DNA from: a virus
Reading direction: 5' to 3' (one strand)
DNA length: 20,648 nt
Virus record (IMG/VR): IMGVR_UViG_3300030106_003533
Coordinates: 4,499 to 25,146 of that record
Shown in pieces: positions 1,302 to 20,648 of the stretch (within the stretch, counting starts at the first letter, position 1; every line of letters starts with the position of its first letter). The notes beneath the pieces are model-generated. The model was given only the letters and a program-made list of their open reading frames with translations. It did no database searches and was not told the DNA's origin. Position numbers and translations under genes: made by a program.

Positions 1302-1667
1302 CTAACTAATTTGAATGGTGACTGTTACACTTCCTAAATTTGTGTTTCCTATTAAACTGTTTCTATATCCAAGATTAAAAGGATCTTGCAATCCTACTGG
1401 ATTAAAACCATATTGAAAGTTTCTTGCTTTAGACTCTGCAAAAGCATTTAAGTCAGGTCTAGGATTTCTCAAAGCCTGTGGATCATCAATCGGTTTCATT
1501 CCAACTTGTAATTGAGGCTGATCCTTTTCAAAACACTCAGGGCAAACTAATATGTTTACCTTTTTTGTTTTGATTGTCAGTTGTTTTAACTTCTTTAACT
1601 TATATCTAAATCCGCACCTATCACATTCTGCGATAGCGTGTTTACCAGAGGCAAAACTTCTGCCCAT
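1302..1667 (-). CDS. Zinc-ribbon phage protein
   Basis: This 121-residue protein has two CxxC knuckles (C15/C18 in ECDRCGF and C42/C45 in VCPECFE) separated by 23 residues, a layout suited to one zinc ion. The N-terminus MGRSFASGKHAIAECDRC, the segment DDPQALRNPRPDL and a C-terminus ending TVTVTI recall a family widespread in marine phages beside neck genes. No nuclease motif is visible, so a role in DNA ends, head completion or protein contacts is not settled. The start overlaps the stop of the upstream adaptor-like gene as TAATG. The zinc-ribbon call is firm and the biological role unknown. Confidence 0.8.
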   Translation of the reverse strand: MGRSFASGKHAIAECDRCGFRYKLKKLKQLTIKTKKVNILVCPECFEKDQPQLQVGMKPIDDPQALRNPRPDLNAFAESKARNFQYGFNPVGLQDPFNLGYRNSLIGNTNLGSVTVTIQIS

Positions 1668-2380
1668 TACACCGCAGAGAAAGAGCTAGTTGGAACTATG
1701 CGTATTGATGCTTTTTCTCTGTCCTCTTCTGATGCCAACTTCCATTGGTCTTGATAATCTTGCTTTAAGGCAGCAACTCTTCCCTCTGCTCCTGGTATTT
1801 TAGCAGACAAATAGTATGCTAAACCAGCGATTAAACAGTTATAAAACCGAAAAGGTATAGCTGGTGTGTTGACTCCATTGCCTGAGTCATCAATCCTTTT
1901 AAGTCTCCAATAGACAAAAGTGTAAGTTGTGGCTGCATCAGGGGCTGGATATAAATTTATTACAGGGGGCAAAACTCCTGTGGGAGTAGTAGCCCCAGAT
2001 CTTCTGTCAATGTAAACCTGTATAGGTCTTCCAGTGGCGTTTTTGTTAGGTATTGTTGCGTAAGTTGAAACGCTTATTCTAGTAACACTTAGATCTTGTT
2101 GTTCACTTCCAGTTCCTGTTCTTATAACGTGTTCTAATAAATCGATGGTGTCATTTGGTAATTCATAAGTTATCGTGCCAGAAGAAAGAGCGACTGAACC
2201 CTCTTCAACTGTCCATAAGTTAACTCCACGATTCGCCCATTCCACTGTTAACAAATTTAAAGATCTTCTGGCTGTTCTAAAATGATAGCCAGTTCTAGCC
2301 TCTGATCCACATCTTTCAAAAGCCTCTTCTATAATCTCATTAACATCTGGAGTAAAACTTGTTGTGCCTGTAGTAGTCAT
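1667..2380 (-). CDS. Neck/stopper-like virion protein (tail-tubular-A or P22 gp4 type)
   Basis: This is a 237-residue protein. Its N-terminal helices DVNEIIEEAFERCG and RTARRSLNLLTVEWANRGVN are typical of head-completion and tail-tubular proteins. They are followed by beta-rich sequence (ITYELPNDTIDLLEHVIRTG) and a late helical pair near FYNCLIAGLAYYLSAKIPG. These features match phage proteins annotated as T7 gp11-like or P22 gp4-like neck components, which extend the portal and retain packaged DNA. It lies beside the SU10-type adaptor, as expected for a neck pair. Its ATG overlaps the upstream stop as ATGA. Which of the two adaptor-like proteins touches the portal cannot be told from sequence. 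Confidence 0.7.
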   Translation of the reverse strand: MTTTGTTSFTPDVNEIIEEAFERCGSEARTGYHFRTARRSLNLLTVEWANRGVNLWTVEEGSVALSSGTITYELPNDTIDLLEHVIRTGTGSEQQDLSVTRISVSTYATIPNKNATGRPIQVYIDRRSGATTPTGVLPPVINLYPAPDAATTYTFVYWRLKRIDDSGNGVNTPAIPFRFYNCLIAGLAYYLSAKIPGAEGRVAALKQDYQDQWKLASEEDREKASIRIVPTSSFSAV

Positions 2381-4552: not shown

Positions 4553-5344
4553 TTAAATAATCCTACCTTTTGTTTTGCCTTTCATAGCAATTCCATCAGC
4601 TCTTTTTGAAACACCGCCTGCTGAAGAGCCTTTTTTCATCATTCCGCCTCCAGCATAGCCCTTCTTCATCATACCTCCGCCTTTATATTTAAGTCTGCCT
4701 ATACGTCTCGTAGTGGTCATATCTTGAAGTCTAGCTCCTGCACCACCTCCCATGCCTGACCCCAAACGACCTGCTGCTCTTCCAACTTTGGCTGCTTTTT
4801 CTGTTTTTAGTTGAGCCGCCTTTCTAGCTTTTTTTCTTTTTATAAAAGTATCTACTTTTTTTGCATCACGTTTATCTTTAGGATCGCCTTTTTTAACCGA
4901 TCCGCCCGCAGCCATTTTTCCTATTCCATCAGCAGCGTAAAACGGAACTTTTTTTCCGTCTTTTTCAACCATTTTTAGTTTTCCGCCTTGAGCATAACCT
5001 TTTTTCATCATGCCACCACCAGCGTATCCTTTTTTCATCATGCCGCCTTTTTTCATGGGTCTTGCTTGAGTTTTAGGCATTCCTCTAGGCATAGGCATAG
5101 GTGCGGCTGGAGTTTTGGACATACCTCTGGGCATAGGCATTGGCATAGCTTGTCTGCCACCACCCATTCTTGGATTTTCTCTTATTAAATCCATAAGCAT
5201 TTGTACTTGGCTGGGAGACAAATTCATTCCCATTGTGGATTGAAGACCTGCCCCTGCTGCTCCGCCAACTGCTCCCCCAGTAACTCCTCCAGCTTGGTAG
5301 CCTTTTTTCATTCCTCCTTTTGCGTAACCTTTTTTCATTTTCAT
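4553..5344 (-). CDS. Lys/Gly/Met-rich repeat protein with DGIA-GKTKGR C-terminal tag
   Basis: This 263-residue, strongly cationic protein is built from degenerate MKKGYAxGG units (near residues 3-20, 97-121 and 225-245) and two PMPMPRGM units (near 69 and 83). The middle (about 150-220) is Lys/Arg/Ala-rich and probably helical. It ends KRADGIAMKGKTKGRII, almost the same tail as the protein at 6620-7087. There is no signal peptide, enzyme motif or convincing membrane span. Proteins with MKKG(Y/G) repeats are common among marine phage late genes and have no assigned role I know of. The start is the ATG at 5344 behind AGGAG. Binding to DNA, or condensing it, is a guess based on charge. Confidence 0.8.
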   Translation of the reverse strand: MKMKKGYAKGGMKKGYQAGGVTGGAVGGAAGAGLQSTMGMNLSPSQVQMLMDLIRENPRMGGGRQAMPMPMPRGMSKTPAAPMPMPRGMPKTQARPMKKGGMMKKGYAGGGMMKKGYAQGGKLKMVEKDGKKVPFYAADGIGKMAAGGSVKKGDPKDKRDAKKVDTFIKRKKARKAAQLKTEKAAKVGRAAGRLGSGMGGGAGARLQDMTTTRRIGRLKYKGGGMMKKGYAGGGMMKKGSSAGGVSKRADGIAMKGKTKGRII

Positions 5345-6025: not shown

Positions 6026-6604
6026 TTACCTCCGTTTTCTTTTAACCCCTCCAATTACGCCACCTTTCTTCATATTTTTTAAAAGTATTTTGCCCATTCT
6101 TGCAAACTCGTTAACATCCTTCATATCAGGATTTTTTACAGCAACTTTTTTAGATAGAGCTTTAAATCTAGCATTAAAATCAGGGGCTGATGCTCCACCT
6201 TGAGTTCCTTCCTTTGCTCTGCTTACCCTAGCTCCTACAATAGACTTACCAGATATGTTTTTACCAACCCTTGGGCTTACTTTTCTTGTCCTGCCTCCAT
6301 AAACAGAACCATCACCTTTAGAAGCACCTATGTTTTTTGCACTCCCTAAAACTGGTTTTCTAGGTCTTCCTGACCCTTTAAGAGTTTTTGGATCAATATT
6401 TTTAGAACTACCCATCTTCATACTTTTTCTAGCACTTTTAACATCATCTTTTGTTTGAGTTGTAAATCTTTTTCCGTCAAAAGAAAATGTTTTTTTGCCA
6501 GCTTTTCTAGCATCTGAAAAGGCTTGTTTAAACGTTTTTGGTTTTACGTTTCTTGTGCTTTTGCTTCCAAATCCTGAGAACGATTTATAATCACTTGATT
6601 TCAT
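6026..6604 (-). CDS. Basic virion-associated protein with a TFKQAF-FDGKRFTT segment
   Basis: This 192-residue protein is rich in Lys, Arg, Ser and Gly and probably mostly disordered. The most ordered part is near residues 24-52 (KTFKQAFSDARKAG, TFSFDGKRFTTQTKDD), a short helix-then-beta motif I know from many marine phage structural proteins. It is followed by repeated SAKNIG/GKNISGKS-like segments and a C-terminal helix NEFARMGKILLKNMKKGG. The start is the ATG at 6604 with AAGGGG upstream. A GTTTAAAC copy (6526-6533) encodes Phe-Lys in TFKQAF. Its role is unknown, probably a virion or internal head protein from position and charge. Confidence 0.78.
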   Translation of the reverse strand: MKSSDYKSFSGFGSKSTRNVKPKTFKQAFSDARKAGKKTFSFDGKRFTTQTKDDVKSARKSMKMGSSKNIDPKTLKGSGRPRKPVLGSAKNIGASKGDGSVYGGRTRKVSPRVGKNISGKSIVGARVSRAKEGTQGGASAPDFNARFKALSKKVAVKNPDMKDVNEFARMGKILLKNMKKGGVIGGVKRKRR

Positions 6605-6619
6605 TATTTACCCCTTACC

Positions 6620-7087
<468 letters not shown>

Positions 7088-12477: not shown

Positions 12478-14848
12478 TTCTTACTCCTTCCTTAAAGTCA
12501 TCTTCGATTCTGTTTTGTTGATCTTGATTCAATTTTTGCTCTGCCTCAATACTATCTATAGCTATTTTAGCCCCTGCAATTTCGGCTTGAGAGTCAATAC
12601 GCTTGTTCTCTCTATCGTCCTTAGCCTTCATCTCTTGGGTTTTAAGATTAAGTTCAGCCTCATCCATTGCTTTATCGTGCTGGAATTTAGCTTCTTTTAA
12701 TTGAAGTTCTGCTTTTTGCATCTGAATCACTGGGTCTTCTTGTTGTTGTTGTGTCTGTTGTTGTTGTGCTTCTGCCTGATCTTTTTGCAATAACTTGTCT
12801 GAAGCTAAGGACACAACCCTAGAAAGTTCTACTTCAACGTCCTCTGGAAGTTTTTCATCTGGAGGTGGAAGTGGAACACCCATCATTTTCTCGATTTCGA
12901 CTCTGTACTGGAAGGCAACGTGTTCCGCAACATGGGCTGTAATAGCAGCCTGTATTCCCTGAGCGTTTGGACTTTGACCAACTAACTCTCTTATTTTTGG
13001 ATCGTTTGCCATATTCATGTGCGTTTTAATATGTGCCTCATGGTCTTGATATAAAAACGCTTTAACTGGCTTGTTTTTCAACAAGTTCATATTCTCTGCT
13101 ACTGGATCAGTAGGCTTGAAGTCGTCCTCTAATGGAACAATCTTCTTGACTTCTTTTATTCCTAGCACTTCTAGCATCTGACGATGTAATAAAGGCATAT
13201 CGTAAATATCTGGAGCACCTTGTGCAAGCTGTAAAGCCGCTTGATACTGTACTACTTTTTGTGCCATTGTTGATGCGTTAGGATCAGATACAGGTATGAC
13301 TTCTACCATATCATAATCAGACATCTTTGCTAACCTCGTACCTCCATCAACTTCGTACTTGTAAACTGGTGGCGTGTAATCACGGATTATCTTTGAAAGA
13401 AGTTTAAACTCTTGTCGCATGGCTACATGGACACGAGCTTGAACAGCAGTCATAACTTTTAATGTGCGTTCCAATATTGCTAACGTTGTTCCGACAGGGG
13501 TTTGCCCAGACATATCTGCAACTTTCAAATCTGCAACAGAGGCGAATCTTCTGCCCTCTTCGATAATTTGATTTAGAAGTTGATAAAGTGTGCCAGAGGG
13601 TTCTTTGTAAGGCAAAGGCACTATTGATTCTTTTATTGTTAGTCCAGTGACATCAACATCTCTGAACTCACCTGGTGCGATAGGGGTATCGTCCCCCTTG
13701 ACTCGTAAATCCTTAGATTTAAAACCACCTGGTAAATTGGCTAATGTTCCAGCATCAACTAATTGTCTTAGTATTGATGTTGCAGACTCTGCAAAGCCTC
13801 CTACCAAATGAATTAAACCAAATCCGTAAAACCCAAAACCAGGTATGTAAGGGTAATGAACGAAGTGCATTCTTTTCTTTTTAACTGGATCATCCTCTAG
13901 ATAATTACGCCTGACTCCTAAAACCTCACCAGTGGAAAGAAGGGTCACAACATAAGGCAATCCTATCTTTGTTTCCTTGCCGTCTTTTTTGTCCTCATAG
14001 CCGACAAGATCCAAATCGCAATGACACTCAAAGATCGTATATCTTTCATCTTTAACAGCAGAGTATCCAGTTTCCTGATCCTGACTTTTCTCTATCTCTG
14101 TTTTGGTGTTTTCTGGATCTGGAAGATCTATGTCCATATAAAAACCCATCGATATAAGTTTCCTTACCTCGTTTTCGGTTTTTCTCATTCTGTGAGTTAT
14201 TCGCTCCGCAGACTGTAAATCGGATGCTCCGTAAGGAACAATTATGTCTTCTGCTGTTACAAATATCGATACTTGTCTGTTTAAACTTGGATCGAAGTAT
14301 ACTTTTTTGAAAGCAGAACCTGCAATAGGAAGAGACCACAGTAATCTTTCATGCTCACCTCTGTACTCAGGCATCTTTTCCGTGAGTTCATAGTTCATGC
14401 TTTCTTGAACACGATTAGCTGCTTCTTGTTTCTCTACATCCATTTTACCTATAATTTGTGTTTTTACAGGTCCGCTCGCAGGAAATGTAGAAAGAATAGT
14501 TTCGGATTGAAATTTTACAACTGCCTCTGATAATACAGGGTGAAACACACCACAAGCACCATCCCAAGGCTCAGTTCTTTCTTCTATCTTTAATCCAAGA
14601 AGTTTTATGCCCTCTGCATATGTTCTTTCCCATTCTTTTCTTGAATCAAGGTCAACTTTTATACTGCTCAAGATATCATCTGAAACCGAGTCGAGTTCTT
14701 CCTGCTCTAAATCCTCAGCTAGGTTTTGTTCAAAGGTTACAGGTTTTATTTCTACCTCGACTTCAACCTCTTCCTCTTCTGGGTCGATTTCTATCTCTAT
14801 TTCCATTTCCGCTGGAACTAGCGGTTCAAGTGGTTTCTCTATAGCCAT
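12443..14848 (-). CDS. Portal protein (P22 type)
   Basis: This 801-residue protein forms the dodecameric ring through which DNA enters and leaves the head. The body (about 40-640) has portal-family features: an early EWERTYAEGIKLLGLKIEER helix and EPWDGACGVFHPVLSEAVVK, then wing-like beta sequence with MHFVHYPYIPGFGFYGFGL and a stem-helix region LAILERTLKVMTAVQARVHV. Residues 14-38 are an alternating acidic/aliphatic stretch. The C-terminus (695-801) has a nine-residue Gln-rich tract (QQQQTQQQQ) and a long charged helix, suited to the barrel extension of P22-like portals. It starts at the ATG at 14848 sharing one base with the terminase stop (TGATG). No ribosome site is evident, so coupling is likely. 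Confidence 0.85.
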   Translation of the reverse strand: MAIEKPLEPLVPAEMEIEIEIDPEEEEVEVEVEIKPVTFEQNLAEDLEQEELDSVSDDILSSIKVDLDSRKEWERTYAEGIKLLGLKIEERTEPWDGACGVFHPVLSEAVVKFQSETILSTFPASGPVKTQIIGKMDVEKQEAANRVQESMNYELTEKMPEYRGEHERLLWSLPIAGSAFKKVYFDPSLNRQVSIFVTAEDIIVPYGASDLQSAERITHRMRKTENEVRKLISMGFYMDIDLPDPENTKTEIEKSQDQETGYSAVKDERYTIFECHCDLDLVGYEDKKDGKETKIGLPYVVTLLSTGEVLGVRRNYLEDDPVKKKRMHFVHYPYIPGFGFYGFGLIHLVGGFAESATSILRQLVDAGTLANLPGGFKSKDLRVKGDDTPIAPGEFRDVDVTGLTIKESIVPLPYKEPSGTLYQLLNQIIEEGRRFASVADLKVADMSGQTPVGTTLAILERTLKVMTAVQARVHVAMRQEFKLLSKIIRDYTPPVYKYEVDGGTRLAKMSDYDMVEVIPVSDPNASTMAQKVVQYQAALQLAQGAPDIYDMPLLHRQMLEVLGIKEVKKIVPLEDDFKPTDPVAENMNLLKNKPVKAFLYQDHEAHIKTHMNMANDPKIRELVGQSPNAQGIQAAITAHVAEHVAFQYRVEIEKMMGVPLPPPDEKLPEDVEVELSRVVSLASDKLLQKDQAEAQQQQTQQQQEDPVIQMQKAELQLKEAKFQHDKAMDEAELNLKTQEMKAKDDRENKRIDSQAEIAGAKIAIDSIEAEQKLNQDQQNRIEDDFKEGVRIGLERADTKTD

Positions 14849-16353
14849 CAGTAATACTTAGCCCTTCTTGCTGTAAATGTTGTTTCCTGCTCGTCAGTAG
14901 GTATTCTGATAAATCCACCCTGCCTAAATCTTAATAGTGCCTGACTTGTTGAGTCAACCAAGTCATCGTGATCTCCATTAGGAAACGATGCAACTTCTTC
15001 AACTACCTCCTCTGCCCATCTCCTGTCTGGACACCATACCAACCCAGATGCAAACAAATCAGAAATAGCGTTTACTCGTGCTATTTTATCTGATCCTTTC
15101 GATGGTGTATACTCCGATATTGGAATACCTGTTTTTCTCATCTCATAAATCAACGGAGCACCTGCTGCTTTTTTCTCCACTATCAAGGTATCGGGTTGCC
15201 ATTGATCATAAAATTCATACGCAGTTTGCTTTAACTCTGGGAACTCCATGCGATCCTTAAAGGCATCCAAAAGGATTAAATTTGCAACCTCATCCCCATC
15301 TTCATTCGATTTATAAAAAATACCCCAAGTTGTGCAGGCAGAATAGTCTGCCCTGTTGTTTTTTTCAAAAGCTGTATCCCAACTCTGAATAATATAATCA
15401 CATGGAGGTGGATTCTCTTTCTCCCATATCTTCCACATATCCCTTTTAATTATTGCCCCCTCTTCCGAGGTTGGGTTTTGTTGATACTGAGCCTCCCATT
15501 TGCTTACAGGTATTTCAGATTTTATAGATTCAAGTTCTTCAACTTTCCAAAACTCAGACCATAAAGGTTTTCCACTTGGAAGCAAGGCAGGCAACTCTAT
15601 AACCTCCCACTCATCAGACTCCCTAGCAATCGAGTTATGCAATATCTGCCCAGTGAGATCTTTTTTAGACCATCTGGTCATCACAAGCACAATAGACCCA
15701 CCTGGTTGTAATCTTTGCCTCGGACCTGAGCTGTACCACTCATAAACCCTATCATAGACTTGAGGAGTTCCCTGCATGGCTTCTTGCTCTGAGTGTGGAT
15801 CATCTATAATCAAAACGTCAGCACCTTTACCAGTGACTGCACCGCCCACACCGATAGCAAAATAGTCTCCGCCTTGATTAGTATTCCATCTACCAGCAGC
15901 TTTTGAGTCTGCCGATAGCTTCACATTAAATATATTCTGGTAATCAGGAGATCCTACAAGATTTCTCACCTTTCTACCAAAACCCACAGCCAGTTCAGCA
16001 GTGTGTGCAGTCTGTATTATCTTTTTTTCTGGATATTTGCCTAAATACCAAGCTGGAAACAGATAACTGGCAAACTCAGATTTGGTATGTCGGGGCGGCA
16101 TATTGATTATTAACCTTTTAAGCTCACCATTAGCTACTCTCTCAAACGCATCTGCCATAATCTTATGATGAGTACCCTCAATAAATGCTGCCCACATCTC
16201 TTTAACAAAAGGTAGATAGGATTCTCTACAAGAGGCTTTCTTATGCTCTCCGAGAAGTGTCCATATCTTCTCTATCTCTGGAGAACCATGAGGTAAACTA
16301 TCAATTACCTTCAAATACCTCTTAATCTCTGATTTCGTTAGCAACACGCTCAT
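14848..16353 (-). CDS. terL: Terminase large subunit (packaging ATPase/nuclease)
   Basis: This 501-residue protein is the motor that cuts concatemeric DNA and pumps it into the head. The N-terminal ATPase shows a Walker-A-like MPPRHTKS (85-92), Walker B VLIIDDP with D184/D185, and the coupling motif VMTRWS (224-229). The C-terminal RNase-H-like nuclease shows SWDTA with D326, VEKK with E393, and NGDHDDLVDS with D463/D464, the three acidic positions expected for metal binding. The length is normal for Terminase_6-type large subunits. The start ATG overlaps the end of the LexA-like gene by 32 bases without a strong ribosome site. All key motifs are intact, so it should be active. Confidence 0.93.
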   Translation of the reverse strand: MSVLLTKSEIKRYLKVIDSLPHGSPEIEKIWTLLGEHKKASCRESYLPFVKEMWAAFIEGTHHKIMADAFERVANGELKRLIINMPPRHTKSEFASYLFPAWYLGKYPEKKIIQTAHTAELAVGFGRKVRNLVGSPDYQNIFNVKLSADSKAAGRWNTNQGGDYFAIGVGGAVTGKGADVLIIDDPHSEQEAMQGTPQVYDRVYEWYSSGPRQRLQPGGSIVLVMTRWSKKDLTGQILHNSIARESDEWEVIELPALLPSGKPLWSEFWKVEELESIKSEIPVSKWEAQYQQNPTSEEGAIIKRDMWKIWEKENPPPCDYIIQSWDTAFEKNNRADYSACTTWGIFYKSNEDGDEVANLILLDAFKDRMEFPELKQTAYEFYDQWQPDTLIVEKKAAGAPLIYEMRKTGIPISEYTPSKGSDKIARVNAISDLFASGLVWCPDRRWAEEVVEEVASFPNGDHDDLVDSTSQALLRFRQGGFIRIPTDEQETTFTARRAKYY

Positions 16354-16564
16354 TCTTGAGTACCATAATTGTTCTAGATTGAAGAGGAATCGTCCTTAAA
16401 TACCTCTCTGCCTGTAATCTCTGTACTATTCTGTGAATATTACTGCGGCTTTTCATGTTTAAACCTTCAGCAATCTCTCTAAGACAAGGAGAAAACCCCT
16501 TAATCCTTATAAAAGCATCAATAAACTGCAAAACTAACTTCTGTCTAGGAGTTAATTTCGACAA
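16322..16564 (-). CDS. LexA-like winged-helix DNA-binding protein
   Basis: This protein has about 80 residues and consists almost wholly of a LexA N-terminal-type winged helix: KLTPRQKLVLQFIDAFIRIK, then GFSPCLREIAEGLNMKSRSN (helix-turn-helix) and IHRIVQRLQAERYLRTIPLQ (recognition end and wing). The LexA peptidase domain is absent, so it would not self-cleave in the SOS response. TTG at 16564 is chosen because it directly precedes SKLTPRQ and has a G-rich site about eight bases upstream; a GTG at 16579 is the alternative. Lying between the two terminase genes is unusual for a regulator. It may repress or activate late genes; the GTTTAAAC copies around it are candidate sites. Confidence 0.82.
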   Translation of the reverse strand: MSKLTPRQKLVLQFIDAFIRIKGFSPCLREIAEGLNMKSRSNIHRIVQRLQAERYLRTIPLQSRTIMVLKNERVANEIRD

Positions 16565-16808
16565 AAATATACCCCCCACCCTAAAAAAACCAAAAATTTC
16601 CTACTAAATCCAATATTTCCTTGATTTACAAATGCGTAACTGTCTTTCAAAAGGGTGTACCCCTGTTTAAACTTTAAAATAACATAATTGAATGTGCAAA
16701 TTACTCTGCTAGTAGCGTATAGGTGTGTGTGTGCTGTGCGGGGGGTAGGGGTGGGTGGGGTTGCTATGTGGTCAGCTATGTTTAAACACCCCTTGCTGTT
16801 AAAGTTAT
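16565..16808. other. Terminase spacer, no convincing gene
   Basis: This 244-base stretch separates the small terminase gene from the LexA-like gene in a genome that otherwise leaves almost no gaps. It contains two GTTTAAAC copies (16665, 16780), a (GT)n run, a strong G-quadruplex motif, and a repeated GGAAAT-TTGG direct pair near 16590-16620. On the minus strand a weak promoter-like pair, TTGAAA and TAAATC with 16 bases between, lies near 16630-16660. A frame from 16812 to 16552 is open but encodes an implausible protein. The region may be regulatory, a packaging site or a replication signal. Confidence 0.55.
16740..16760 (+). promoter_or_regulatory. G-quadruplex motif
   Basis: Four G-runs of 6, 4, 3 and 4 bases are separated by loops of two, one and one bases. 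Loops this short give very stable parallel quadruplexes in vitro. G is on the plus strand, so the C-rich copy is in the minus-strand transcripts of the terminase operon, and the quadruplex would form in DNA or in plus-strand RNA. The motif sits 20 bases left of a GTTTAAAC copy. It could stall replication or packaging, or affect transcription from the flanking promoters. Confidence 0.75.
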
Positions 16809-17405
16809 TCAATGCGACTTGCTAGTGTCAAAGGATAGCAAGGTCTTTTCCAACTCATCCTTTAGTTTCTCTGGACTTACAGAGGTTGTGATTTCTTGCT
16901 TGGATAATTCTACAAACAGACCGCTAGACTGCCCCAGCATTTGCAGAGCTTTGAGCTTAACGTGTTCATTGTCCGAATGGATAAGTTTAAACAGCTCTCG
17001 TACTACTGTTTCTCTCGTGCCTTTGTGATCATTCAATATGTCTTTCTGCTCAGTTTGGAAATGGTTGTTCAATTCCCTAGCGATATTTGGTGACTTGCTA
17101 AGTTTGTACGCAGAAGTACTGATAGATCTTTTGGTTGTGCTGGGTTTAATGTCGTAGGCTTTTGCATACGCATCACTGGGGTTCATTCCATACTTGGTAA
17201 TGTTTGTAACGTATGCCTTTTGTTTGTCTGTTAGCTGTCTCTGGCGGTCTCTGGTGATGTTCTTGATACCCTTGGTATTACCATCCTTATTTGTCTTAAC
17301 CACTATGTTGTTTACACTCTCTTCTATTTCTTCTATTTTCACCGCTCCGCTCCGCTGTTTATTGTGACCATGAGAACAAACTGTACCGCCAATTCCTATT
17401 TTCAT
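16809..17405 (-). CDS. terS: Terminase small subunit
   Basis: This protein (198 residues from the ATG at 17405) is the DNA-recognition partner of the large terminase. The centre holds the family-like helix-turn-helix LTDKQKAYVTNITKYGMNPS with DAYAKAYDIKPSTTKRSIST (about 58-97), then a helical oligomerisation region and the late LKALQMLGQSSGLFVE helix. The start is unsure. The frame is open up to a TTG at 17516; the ATG at 17405 has no clear ribosome site; a GTG at 17342 behind GGAGCGG would give 177 residues, a common length. Residues before about 22 look low in coding character, so the shortest form is plausible. A GTTTAAAC copy lies inside at 16985. Confidence 0.8.
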   Translation of the reverse strand: MKIGIGGTVCSHGHNKQRSGAVKIEEIEESVNNIVVKTNKDGNTKGIKNITRDRQRQLTDKQKAYVTNITKYGMNPSDAYAKAYDIKPSTTKRSISTSAYKLSKSPNIARELNNHFQTEQKDILNDHKGTRETVVRELFKLIHSDNEHVKLKALQMLGQSSGLFVELSKQEITTSVSPEKLKDELEKTLLSFDTSKSH

Positions 17406-17700
17406 GCCCTGATTGTGTTCTTGCAAGGGATGTTTAAACCCTATTTGCCCTGACAAACTACCCCATCGATTGATTAAGTTTTCAAATCGGCAATTTTCTA
17501 CACTCTCTTTTTTCAAGTGTCGGAGTTATCGTCCGATGGTAGTAAACAAGCACGTTAATTTTTCGGCTGTACTGCTTGGTATTTCAAACAAAGAAAGTAA
17601 ACAGTGACTATTGACAAACAAAGCAGGGGTGTTACATTTAAATGGTAGGGCAAGTTGTAAGTTTAAACATTAATTAAGTTGTTGATTTAAAAGGAAAAAT
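17406..17700. promoter_or_regulatory. Divergent intergenic region
   Basis: About 300 bases separate the minus-strand terminase operon from the plus-strand module. They contain the plus-strand promoter at 17611-17638, GTTTAAAC copies at 17432 and 17661, and a small dyad TCGGA/TCCGA at 17520-17536 that could be an operator half-site pair. No convincing minus-strand promoter is visible, although TTG-rich candidates exist. Part of the region is open as an N-terminal extension of the small terminase gene. Confidence 0.55.
17611..17638 (+). promoter_or_regulatory. Sigma70-like promoter for the plus-strand module
   Basis: A consensus -35 TTGACA (17611-17616), a 16-base spacer and TACATT (17633-17638) lie upstream of the zinc-ribbon gene. 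Transcription would begin near 17645, leaving a leader of about 55 bases that contains GTTTAAAC at 17661-17668. This placement lets a protein bound to the palindrome block elongation or early initiation. It is the best promoter match I can see in the window; host RNA polymerase would read it. Confidence 0.65.
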
Positions 17701-18450
17701 ATGAAAACAGTAACAGTATTAGATACAAATGGTGTCAAACAGAGCGTTATTTTGTCTCCAAAACACCACAATAGTGAACATTGGTTACAACTGGCGGCAA
17801 GCGAGGTTGCTGGTTCAATCGATATTTTTTTCAATAACAGAGCTATGAGGTGCGGTTTCGATACAGACAGACTGAAACTAATCAAATGGCATTATCATTT
17901 TGCGACTAAGGGCAATAGATCGGAAAAGCGAGAAAACATTGAGGTCTTGCTGGATCAGGTCGTAGGTGATGGGTCAAAGGCTAATGTAGTGACTATCTCA
18001 AATAGACTCTCAGATGAGTTTGATTTACTGGCTCAGGTCATTTTGGGCATGGCTTATGTTGGATTTAACTCAACCAATAGCAGAGTCACAAACTTCAAGT
18101 CTTTTTTGCGGTTTTATGGCTTGGATGCAACCAGACCCAGTAAACCAGAAGTCACAGACTCATTCAAAAGCAACTGTATTGGCTGGATTGAGGGTCTGGG
18201 GGCATTTCCTAGCAAGTCTGTCGCAATTGCCAAGAATAGAACAACTGGTTCAAGGCAGATGCTGTCAGGGCAGTGTACTGGATGTGGTTTTCGATGTTCG
18301 GCTCTCAGAGGGCAATTGGAAAAACATAAAATCCCCCTCTGCGGTGACTGTAATATCCCAATCACTTTCCCAAAGCTGGCAACTGCATTAGCTGGACAAC
18401 CTAAACTACCAAGCACCGCCCCAGCATATGCTGGCGTTAAGCCTTGGTAA
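17701..18450 (+). CDS. Zinc-ribbon protein of the CobS/CobT-like module, unknown function
   Basis: This 249-residue protein has a helical N-terminal domain (1-180) without recognised catalytic motifs. A C-terminal zinc ribbon follows, with C192/C195 (QCTGCGFRC) and C214/C217 (PLCGDCNIP), and then a Pro/Ala-rich tail. The pattern QML-x-C-x-x-C-GFR...C-x-x-C recalls zinc ribbons at the end of SprT-like and other phage proteins, but no HExxH motif is present here. The ATG at 17701 has AAAGG eight bases upstream. The 17-base stretch spanning site and start is identical to that of the ATPase gene. Co-expression with the AAA+ and CobT-like genes suggests an adaptor or substrate-recognition role (inference). 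Confidence 0.72.
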   Translation: MKTVTVLDTNGVKQSVILSPKHHNSEHWLQLAASEVAGSIDIFFNNRAMRCGFDTDRLKLIKWHYHFATKGNRSEKRENIEVLLDQVVGDGSKANVVTISNRLSDEFDLLAQVILGMAYVGFNSTNSRVTNFKSFLRFYGLDATRPSKPEVTDSFKSNCIGWIEGLGAFPSKSVAIAKNRTTGSRQMLSGQCTGCGFRCSALRGQLEKHKIPLCGDCNIPITFPKLATALAGQPKLPSTAPAYAGVKPW

Positions 18451-18458
18451 ATCATAAC

Positions 18459-18475
18459 AAAGGAAAAATATGAAA
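18459..18475 (+). promoter_or_regulatory. Ribosome binding site identical to that of the upstream gene
   Basis: The 17-base string AAAGGAAAAATATGAAA occurs at 17690-17706 and again here, covering the Shine-Dalgarno, the start codon and the second codon. The exact identity suggests equal translation rates for the zinc-ribbon protein and the ATPase, as for parts of one complex, or a shared translational operator. Confidence 0.7.
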
Positions 18476-19978
18476 TTTACAAGACAACAAGAGTTTCAAT
18501 TAGTCAAATTATCTGAATCCAAATTGGCTGGAGCTTGTTTGGAGCTGTCAAATTATGACATCAGGAAGAGTAGTGTGAATAGATCCGACTGGAAAATTCA
18601 TTTGATTGAGTTTGTTAAAAATGATTTTGAAAGCTGGGTAGTCGATGGAAAGGTCAAAACATTAGACGATCTAAACTCATTCGCACCCCTAGACTTAGCT
18701 GGGGCAAGCAAGGTTGCTGAAGACATTAATGCAGTATCTACACTCAATTCAAAAGTAGAATCTGGCTTGAAAGAAATTAGTGACCTAGTCAAAAGATCCA
18801 GCAATATCAATTCTGCTATTTTGGATCAACAACAAAAGTCGAGTGCTGATATTGAAAAACAATTGTCCAAAGCTAAGGCTGAGATAGTTTCGATTCAGAA
18901 ACCAGATCCATCTAAAGTAGACACAGCTATCAATCAGGCGGTTGCCGTTCACTTTGAAAAGTTTAAACAGACTTCAACACCTGAGCAAATTAAGGTTGCG
19001 GCAAGCCAAACATCCAAGTACACCATCAAAAAGGCTGGCGAGGTGTTTGGGTCAGAGAATTGTGTTTACGAGATCGATGGGAACAAAGTTGATTTTTCTG
19101 ACTACCCTTGCGAAGTATTCGGTGAATCAAAAGTAGTCGATAGTTTTTACATCTTTCCCCCAGAGCATTTGCATCAGTGTTTGATCGCTTTGGATCAAGA
19201 TATCCCTCACAATTGCTGGCTGGGCGGTCAGCGTGGTACTGGCAAGTCTCAATTTGTTGAGAATTTTGCTGGCAGATTGGGCAGACCATTCGAGCGTATC
19301 AATTTCGATCAAACGTCCGACAGAGACTTGGTTGGGGGGTTTCAGCCAGATCCAGATAAACCGCCTTTGTCATGGCAAGCTGGAGCTGTGGGTAATGCTG
19401 TGAAAAAAGCTGGATGCATCATTTTATTAGATGAGGTCTCAATGGCGTCTGAAAGTAACTTGGCGGCATTGCATTGTGCATTAGAGCGAGTACCATCCAG
19501 AGGTTTCAAGGTTACCGAAACTGGCGAGAGCATCCCTGTAGCACACAAGGTATCGTTTTTTGCCGCAGATAATACTTTCGGTCAGGGCGATGAGTCTGGT
19601 AACTATGGCGGCACGAATGCGATGAACCAAGCCTTTATCGACAGATTCTGTTTTTCAATGGAGTTTAACTATCTGCCAAAAGAAAAAGAGATTAGTTTAT
19701 TGGTCTCTAAGTCTGGTTGCTCATTGGATGTTGCTGAACAAATAGTTGAGTTTTCTGTAACAGCTCGCCAAAAAACACTTGAGGGAATACTAACAATGCC
19801 CCCATCTACAAGACAATTGTTTGGCATAGCTCATTCTTTGAAAAAGGGATTGCCGCCCTCATTGGCATTTAAAAATTCAATTTTAAACAAGTACCCAAGC
19901 GATTGTTATCCAGAGCTTTTGGCAATCTTTGAGTCGAAAGTCGATGTTAAAAAATTACAAGGATTAGACAATGAATAA
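18470..19978 (+). CDS. MoxR/CobS-like AAA+ ATPase
   Basis: This is a 502-residue protein. Residues 1-180 are a helical extension with a probable coiled coil (near 85-150); 180-230 are a linker. The AAA+ core shows Walker A GQRGTGKS (253-260), Walker B IILLDEV (D321, E322), a sensor-1 Asn368 in AADNTFGQGD, and an arginine-finger candidate Arg392 in NQAFIDRF. This matches the MoxR/CobS clade, whose members remodel proteins with a partner carrying a VWA or CobT domain. The CobT-like gene overlaps it by 8 bases, as in such pairs. Phage CobS-like genes are often labelled cobalamin genes, but nothing else here belongs to cobalamin synthesis, so a protein-remodelling role is favoured. Confidence 0.85.
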   Translation: MKFTRQQEFQLVKLSESKLAGACLELSNYDIRKSSVNRSDWKIHLIEFVKNDFESWVVDGKVKTLDDLNSFAPLDLAGASKVAEDINAVSTLNSKVESGLKEISDLVKRSSNINSAILDQQQKSSADIEKQLSKAKAEIVSIQKPDPSKVDTAINQAVAVHFEKFKQTSTPEQIKVAASQTSKYTIKKAGEVFGSENCVYEIDGNKVDFSDYPCEVFGESKVVDSFYIFPPEHLHQCLIALDQDIPHNCWLGGQRGTGKSQFVENFAGRLGRPFERINFDQTSDRDLVGGFQPDPDKPPLSWQAGAVGNAVKKAGCIILLDEVSMASESNLAALHCALERVPSRGFKVTETGESIPVAHKVSFFAADNTFGQGDESGNYGGTNAMNQAFIDRFCFSMEFNYLPKEKEISLLVSKSGCSLDVAEQIVEFSVTARQKTLEGILTMPPSTRQLFGIAHSLKKGLPPSLAFKNSILNKYPSDCYPELLAIFESKVDVKKLQGLDNE

Positions 19979-20648
19979 TTCAATACAAGGACATTTAATA
20001 CTGCCATCACTTTCAGGAGCAATGGCTAAACTCTTCAAAGACATTATTGCTACACATTTAGCTCCAAACAATGCTAAAGACGTTCAAGTCACTGCTCGCT
20101 TTTGGTCAGTGAACACTGCCGCAGTTAAGTTTCACATGGGCGTGGCTAAGGCTGGTGAGTGTGAGAGGACAATGTACGCACAAGTTATGTTTCCTCAGTG
20201 TGATGAAACTAAGCCAATGAAATTGTCACGCTTTAGAGAGCTAATAGCCTACGCATTACATGAGCTTTGTCATTTGCTATACACTCAAAACGTGCCTTGG
20301 GATAGTGCTGTGGCAGATGCTGGTGCGAGAGGTAGATTTTTAGGGTCATTGATTAATGGTCTTGAAGATCCTAGGATTGAAAAGGCTGGTATAGATCTCT
20401 CTCCAAATGTAAACTTTTCAAGTTTCTTTGAAAGTATTATTAACTCTGTCATAGCTAAGTCGGAGTTAAAAGAGGATGATTTTAAAAACATCCCATTCGT
20501 ACTTGCGGTATTCGGCAGACGTTTAAACGGCTATAAAATCAATATCAATTTTGATTGGAATCTTTGCCCTTGGAAAGCTGAGTTAGAAACAGCTCTTAAA
20601 AAATCGCAGTCTGCTAGATCCACAGAGGACATCGTTAAAATCGCAATT
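19971..20648 (+). CDS. CobT-like metallopeptidase/VWA-family protein, N-terminal part
   Basis: 226 residues are visible and the frame runs off the right edge. It starts at the ATG at 19971, overlapping the ATPase stop as ATGAATAA, so translation is coupled. Residues 93-101 (AYALHELCH) carry an HExxH zinc motif (H97, E98, H101), and 127-137 (LINGLEDPRIE) match the N-x-L-E-D-x-R-(I/V)-E signature of CobT and related VWA proteins, with E132 a possible third ligand. A VWA domain with a MIDAS site would be expected further downstream and cannot be seen. The partner of the AAA+ ATPase is therefore probably this protein. Whether it cleaves peptides or only binds metal is unknown. Confidence 0.8.
   Translation, partial: MNNSIQGHLILPSLSGAMAKLFKDIIATHLAPNNAKDVQVTARFWSVNTAAVKFHMGVAKAGECERTMYAQVMFPQCDETKPMKLSRFRELIAYALHELCHLLYTQNVPWDSAVADAGARGRFLGSLINGLEDPRIEKAGIDLSPNVNFSSFFESIINSVIAKSELKEDDFKNIPFVLAVFGRRLNGYKININFDWNLCPWKAELETALKKSQSARSTEDIVKIAI

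Follow-up and report, generated by a model that had tools for sequence, protein, structure and literature searches.

We report a gene module at the end of the genome record of an uncultivated aquatic phage, which encodes a SprT/Spartan-like protein with a lost active site and a retained zinc ribbon, a MoxR-type AAA+ ATPase and a zincin-like domain representing a putative metallopeptidase. Together these probably constitute an ATP-dependent machine, either a zinc metallopeptidase or a remodeller, whose recruiting subunit would be the SprT-like protein; both the activity and the assembly into a complex are predicted.

The stretch of DNA analysed, here called the window, comprises 20,648 nucleotides and corresponds to positions 4499-25146 of the 25,146-base record IMGVR_UViG_3300030106_003533, the end of the window being the end of the record. 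Gene 3 stops at this true contig end and its VWA part is therefore not visible in the window. The features of the locus, in window coordinates, are as follows:

16812-17516 (-): terminase small subunit (TerS), divergent neighbour upstream; weak Terminase_2 and phrog_51 matches
17611-17638 (+): promoter-like TTGACA-N16-TACATT whose second hexamer is preceded by TG; 10 of 12 matches, at chance frequency in the region
17701-18450 (+): gene 1, SprT-like (Spartan-type) protein of 249 aa, no HExxH, C-terminal zinc ribbon
18043-18057 (+): lost HExxH site of gene 1 according to alignments, reading LGMAY
18274-18351 (+): zinc-ribbon cysteines C192, C195, C214 and C217 of gene 1; the C192, C195 and C214 positions are kept across relatives
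18470-19978 (+): gene 2, MoxR-clade AAA+ ATPase (CobS/CbbQ/NorQ type) of 502 aa with an N-terminal extension
19226-19249 (+): Walker A of gene 2, GQRGTGKS
19424-19438 (+): Walker B of gene 2, LLDEV
19971-20648 (+): gene 3, zincin-like N-terminal domain of a putative metallopeptidase-VWA protein, at least 226 aa, open at the contig end
20259-20273 (+): HELCH (HExxH) of gene 3; HExxH is common to 76 of 79 distinct family sequences
20361-20381 (+): LEDPRIE of gene 3, probable region of the third zinc ligand; ED.R.E is present in 78 of 79 sequences

Genes 1-3 run divergently from the genes for TerS, the large terminase subunit (TerL), portal, GroES-like, scaffold-position and capsid proteins on the minus strand and form a unit of their own, flanked on one side by the packaging genes and on the other by a primase/helicase-like gene, identified by eye, that runs convergently. 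A preliminary description had listed the three genes with their coordinates, matched ribosome sites, an 8-base overlap and a direction away from the virion operon, all of which is borne out by the sequence: genes 1 and 2 carry near-identical ribosome sites (AAAGGAAAAATATG), and genes 2 and 3 overlap by exactly 8 bases (19971-19978). The single promoter proposed there has a promoter-like candidate in TTGACA-N16-TACATT, but such sites are no commoner in the region than expected by chance (6 observed, 7.3 expected), and one promoter for the module is therefore plausible rather than established.

TerL (14848-16353, minus strand) is 57-60% identical to that of pelagiphage HTVC027P and phage 023Pt_psg01, which places the window in the HTVC023P-like lineage, a branch of which carries the module. 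Immediately upstream of TerL lies a gene for an 85-aa LexA-type winged-helix protein (16322-16579, minus strand; LexA_DNA_bind 51.4 bits), and a similar protein of 75-81 aa occupies the equivalent place in relatives such as L031, L048, L107 and L126. The virion cluster further contains Lys/Gly/Met-rich repetitive proteins with MKKGYAGGGMMKKG repeats (4553-5344, 6026-6604 and 6620-7087, minus strand), and two matches to the SU10 adaptor family (455-1132 and 1667-2380, minus strand) occur in this single genome.

Gene 2 is a CobS/CbbQ/NorQ-type MoxR AAA+ ATPase, the preliminary description having recognised it as MoxR/CobS-like. It has an AAA_5 core (51.8 bits, cut-off 22), both Walker motifs and a CbbQ_C region (24.7 bits, cut-off 20.6), it matches phrog_249 at 1e-42, and its profile matches the solved structures of midasin, CobS, CbbQ and NorQ. 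Compared with the CobS equivalog TIGR01650 it reaches 52.5 bits, far under the curated cut-off of 558.55. The Walker A motif of the ATPase genes of L115 and L125 reads GERSTGKT, not GERGTGKT.

Of the viral scans with single sequences, those with gene 1 and with gene 2 had no hits and the one with gene 3 hit one locus; L002 was the first syntenic contig, and alignments including it extended the relatives to about 60 loci, in which genes were called by home-made profiles. The gene order is fixed in these relatives, with portal, TerL and TerS on one strand and the SprT-like, ATPase, HExxH and VWA genes on the other, the latter order being found in about 48 relatives. Three genes are real in the window, while the module of the relatives usually has four, because the HExxH and VWA parts are split into separate genes at most loci (about 40). 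Fusions of the two are found in L024 and L028, the nearest relatives of the window, and in a distant group (L052-L064) showing the reverse gene order, in which SprT was not found. All 74 VWA proteins of the relatives carry the MIDAS motif DxSxS and that of L004 exceeds the CobT_C cut-off (41.9 versus 21 bits), in agreement with the expectation of a downstream domain compatible with a MoxR-VWA pair; by analogy, the VWA part of the window's own gene 3 presumably lies beyond the contig end.

The composition and linkage of the module are solid. Among the best 80 of 191 matches of a search with SprT, all from this phage group, HExxH is intact in every one, TerS lies upstream of SprT in 78, and the ATPase follows SprT directly in 75, the contig edge being reached in four and 486 bases being left in L098. 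Whether gene 1 always accompanies the pair had been raised as a check, and among these matches it nearly always does. Outside this group SprT-like genes also occur without the pair: in UtzChips, the one isolate record inspected out of 163, such a gene is set among DNA genes and the ATPase is lacking. Over 99 loci, duplicates included, both active sites are intact in 89, that of SprT is lost in seven, that of the gene 3 family is changed in three, and in none are both lost.

Gene 1 had been described as an uncharacterised zinc ribbon; this has to be revised, as it is a SprT/Spartan-like protein which has lost the active site and retained the zinc ribbon. A profile HMM built from 36 relatives, with the clade of the window left out, matches it at 2.3e-10, and the L002 gene at the same position shares 48% identity with actinobacteriophage SprT-like proteases (Microbacterium phage), scoring 12.7 bits with the Pfam SprT-like profile, below the cut-off of 25.6. 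The model of gene 1 (pLDDT 83) has a zincin-like fold with a zinc ribbon, with selecase (Z 8.1), jannalysin (7.4), SPRTN (7.2) and also Wss1 as nearest folds, all of them zincins. Scans of gene 1 against Pfam, PHROG, NCBIfam and PADLOC returned no convincing family, and a PDB sequence search with its profile gave chance matches only.

The SprT-like proteins of L028, L089, L090, L093 and L094 lack HExxH as well. L093 and L094 lie on a branch of the ATPase tree apart from L028, L089 and L090, and since support is weak and branches are long, one loss and two losses of the motif are not separable. Among the inactive copies of L028, L089 and L090 dN/dS is 0.03-0.085 (a rough value at dS 0.6-1.3), showing that the inactive protein is maintained under purifying selection. 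A decaying pseudogene is ruled out by these values, rough as they are, from relatives with the same loss, and the inactive SprT is a conserved pseudoenzyme of the window lineage.

Gene 3 encodes a zincin-like domain and, judged from its motifs and model, a putative metallopeptidase. HELCH lies within a helix (residues 85-104) of the model (pLDDT 91), whose structural matches are mostly zincins, namely Ste24 (Z 6.8), ZMPSTE24 (5.8), selecase (5.6), BlaR1 (5.3) and SPRTN (5.1), with DUF885-type proteins also in the top rows. These Z values of 5-7 are modest and gain weight only because the HExxH motif is present and zincins recur; for genes 1 and 3 together Z stays below 8 or slightly over, and Foldseek alone gave no match at E<0.001 for either model. 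Neither Pfam, NCBIfam, PHROG nor PADLOC provided a convincing family for gene 3, and its profile found chance matches only among PDB sequences. The three family members without HExxH among the 79 distinct sequences carry HELAF (L018) or HEGLGH (L147, 5802-6809, and L153, 5935-6963, both plus strand). The latter has the HExxxH spacing known from dipeptidyl peptidase III. A Comamonadaceae MAG contains a lone family member of 215 aa (L075, 3904-4551, plus strand; HELGH...LEDVRIE), next to which ATPase, VWA and SprT genes were not detected.

Taken together, the data suggest a mechanism in which the MoxR ATPase, most likely as a hexamer, would power a MIDAS-site VWA co-chaperone which is fused to, or partnered with, the zincin peptidase domain of gene 3, while the SprT-like protein would most likely act as zinc-ribbon recruiting subunit. 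In most relatives SprT looks like an active protease; in the window lineage it would be a pseudoenzyme, with gene 3 doing the cutting. The machine would most likely act on host proteins during takeover, and the kinship to SprT suggests that these may be DNA-bound. A proteolytic or remodelling complex had been named as a possibility beforehand, and as such it is supported by HExxH, the zincin-like models and the VWA proteins of the relatives. Going one step further, a speculative and rather doubtful model would have the SprT/Spartan-like subunit guide an ATP-fuelled, multi-subunit MoxR-VWA-zincin metalloprotease to proteins located on DNA, the guide being a pure adaptor pseudoenzyme in some lineages; host nucleoid, repair and transcription proteins as well as phage DNA crosslinks would be candidate targets as part of this same tentative reading.

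Rather doubtful, yet the strongest competitor, is a function as chaperone only, in which the zincin folds would bind metal or substrate without cutting, comparable to the activation of metalloenzymes by NorQ/NorD or CbbQ/CbbO. CbbQ and NorQ are among the closest solved ATPases, and two branches have a SprT lacking HExxH while L018 lacks it in its gene 3 homologue, which indicates that cutting is dispensable in each subunit. HExxH-bearing VWA proteins might serve as metal chaperones and not be proteolytic. Against this, HExxH and ED.R.E of gene 3 are strongly retained across very diverse phages, and no locus that had lost both active sites was found, the numbers being small. Mutual redundancy of the two protease sites was considered as well, with none of 99 loci lacking both, yet the losses are too few for a conclusion.

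A role of the MoxR-VWA-peptidase module in assembling or maturing the particle, as suggested for jumbo phages (PMC7824862), is unlikely. The terminase genes adjoin the module in 78 of 80 relatives (best 80 of 191 matches), an S78 prohead protease was not found in 13 records, and an archaeal-virus MoxR-VWA precedent is cited in PMC7824862. This reading is weakened by five phages sharing the TerL-portal-GroES-scaffold-capsid order (HTVC027P, HTVC023P, 023Pt_psg01, DSL-LC04 and Pag-Yong1; TerL 45-60% identical), in whose whole genomes a search for the ATPase and the SprT-like gene found neither, by the transcription of the module away from the virion genes and by the SprT relative of another phage residing among DNA genes (one case).

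For viral cobST PMC8651126 (2021) proposes cobaltochelatase subunits which team with a hijacked host CobN to raise cobalamin synthesis, calling the annotation as peptidase mistaken. Transferred to the module, this reading is weak and we regard it as improbable, even though gene 2 is CobS-like by phrog_249 and the solved CobS structures and the VWA of relatives passes the CobT_C cut-off. Gene 2 remains far from the CobS equivalog, the CobT N-terminal domain PF06213 matches neither gene 3 nor L004 and scores 321 bits on a bona fide CobT, and a profile comparison of gene 3 with CobT (hhalign) was not significant. HExxH, nearly invariant in the gene 3 family, is found in none of eight true CobT proteins, of which seven carry VEQAR[VI]E at a place similar to ED.R.E. 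The earlier designation as a CobT-like HELCH protein holds for the motif and for a CobT-like partner of the ATPase, and gives way to a zincin-like domain; CobT chains do not appear in the structural match lists, which does not exclude them as matches. No other cobalamin gene had been noted, and CobN and ribonucleotide reductase are likewise absent from the 12 related contigs (20-60 kb) and the window record, 13 possibly incomplete records. No role in cobalt insertion is known for the SprT-like protein that constantly accompanies the pair. A defence system can be dismissed, the sole PADLOC sign being a weak JetC match of the coiled region of the ATPase (E 0.044).

The phage MoxR/metallopeptidase-VWA pair as such is already known: PMC7824862 (2021) reported jumbo phages with a MoxR ATPase adjoining a VWA protein with metallopeptidase domain and proposed a role in virion assembly. 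The same neighbourhood is seen here in L024 and L028, where peptidase and VWA are fused, and in about 40 split loci. In contrast to the jumbo phages, the ATPase is here preceded by a SprT-like gene, and the peptidase is in most cases encoded apart from the VWA; the carriers are HTVC023P-like phages with a small TerL-portal-GroES head cassette. The viral cobST clusters share the CobS-like ATPase and a VWA partner, with a split VWA ORF in HHTV-2, whereas the part of PMC8651126 available makes no mention of a SprT subunit. PMC7029224, as far as accessible, places sprT and cobS/cobT both in pelagimyophages and draws no link between them. The gene 1 family is homologous to phage SprT-like proteases and the gene 1 model resembles SPRTN and selecase of the SPRTN/Wss1/selecase zincins; different from known SprT-like proteases, the window lineage lacks HExxH and the gene is embedded in a MoxR-zincin-VWA operon. 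With NorQ/NorD, CbbQ/CbbO and bacterial CobS/CobT the module would share the logic of a MoxR hexamer with a VWA co-chaperone, while gene 3, unlike bona fide CobT, retains the zincin motif. No description of the SprT-containing operon was found in the literature, mainly open-access papers, nor, within the accessible parts of these sources, of the SprT subunit, the split architecture or the pseudoenzyme.

The motifs extend to other phages. The "peptidase" partner of cyanophage CobS carries HEVGH, ED.R.E and DWSGS in P-SSM4 and seven further cyanophage-type records, and queries with the peptidase and with the ATPase gave equal record tallies (365 Synechococcus, 61 Cyanophage, 24 Prochlorococcus). 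HExxH is also present in the CobS partners of Roseobacter phage CRP-810 and of Klebsiella and Ochrobactrum phages, the latter two having a VWA/MIDAS-like motif too; it is not present in the partner of Pseudomonas phage ZY21 nor in the frame found in Pseudoalteromonas phage XG4. The motifs favour the peptidase annotation over the cobaltochelatase reading of PMC8651126, and the data as a whole side with a metallopeptidase.

Virome papers often count viral cobS/cobT as auxiliary metabolic genes for vitamin B12. Motifs, partners and genome content speak instead for a metallopeptidase or remodelling system powered by ATP in the phages analysed here, and the shared motifs extend that reading to the majority of the partner proteins checked in cyanophages and other phages. 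With its constant presence, the SprT-like partner provides a concrete, testable clue to the substrate, and lineages with a dead SprT represent natural separation-of-function variants. If the SprT-like subunit indeed guides the machine, widespread phage "cobS/cobT" auxiliary genes would be recast as protein-degradation machinery.
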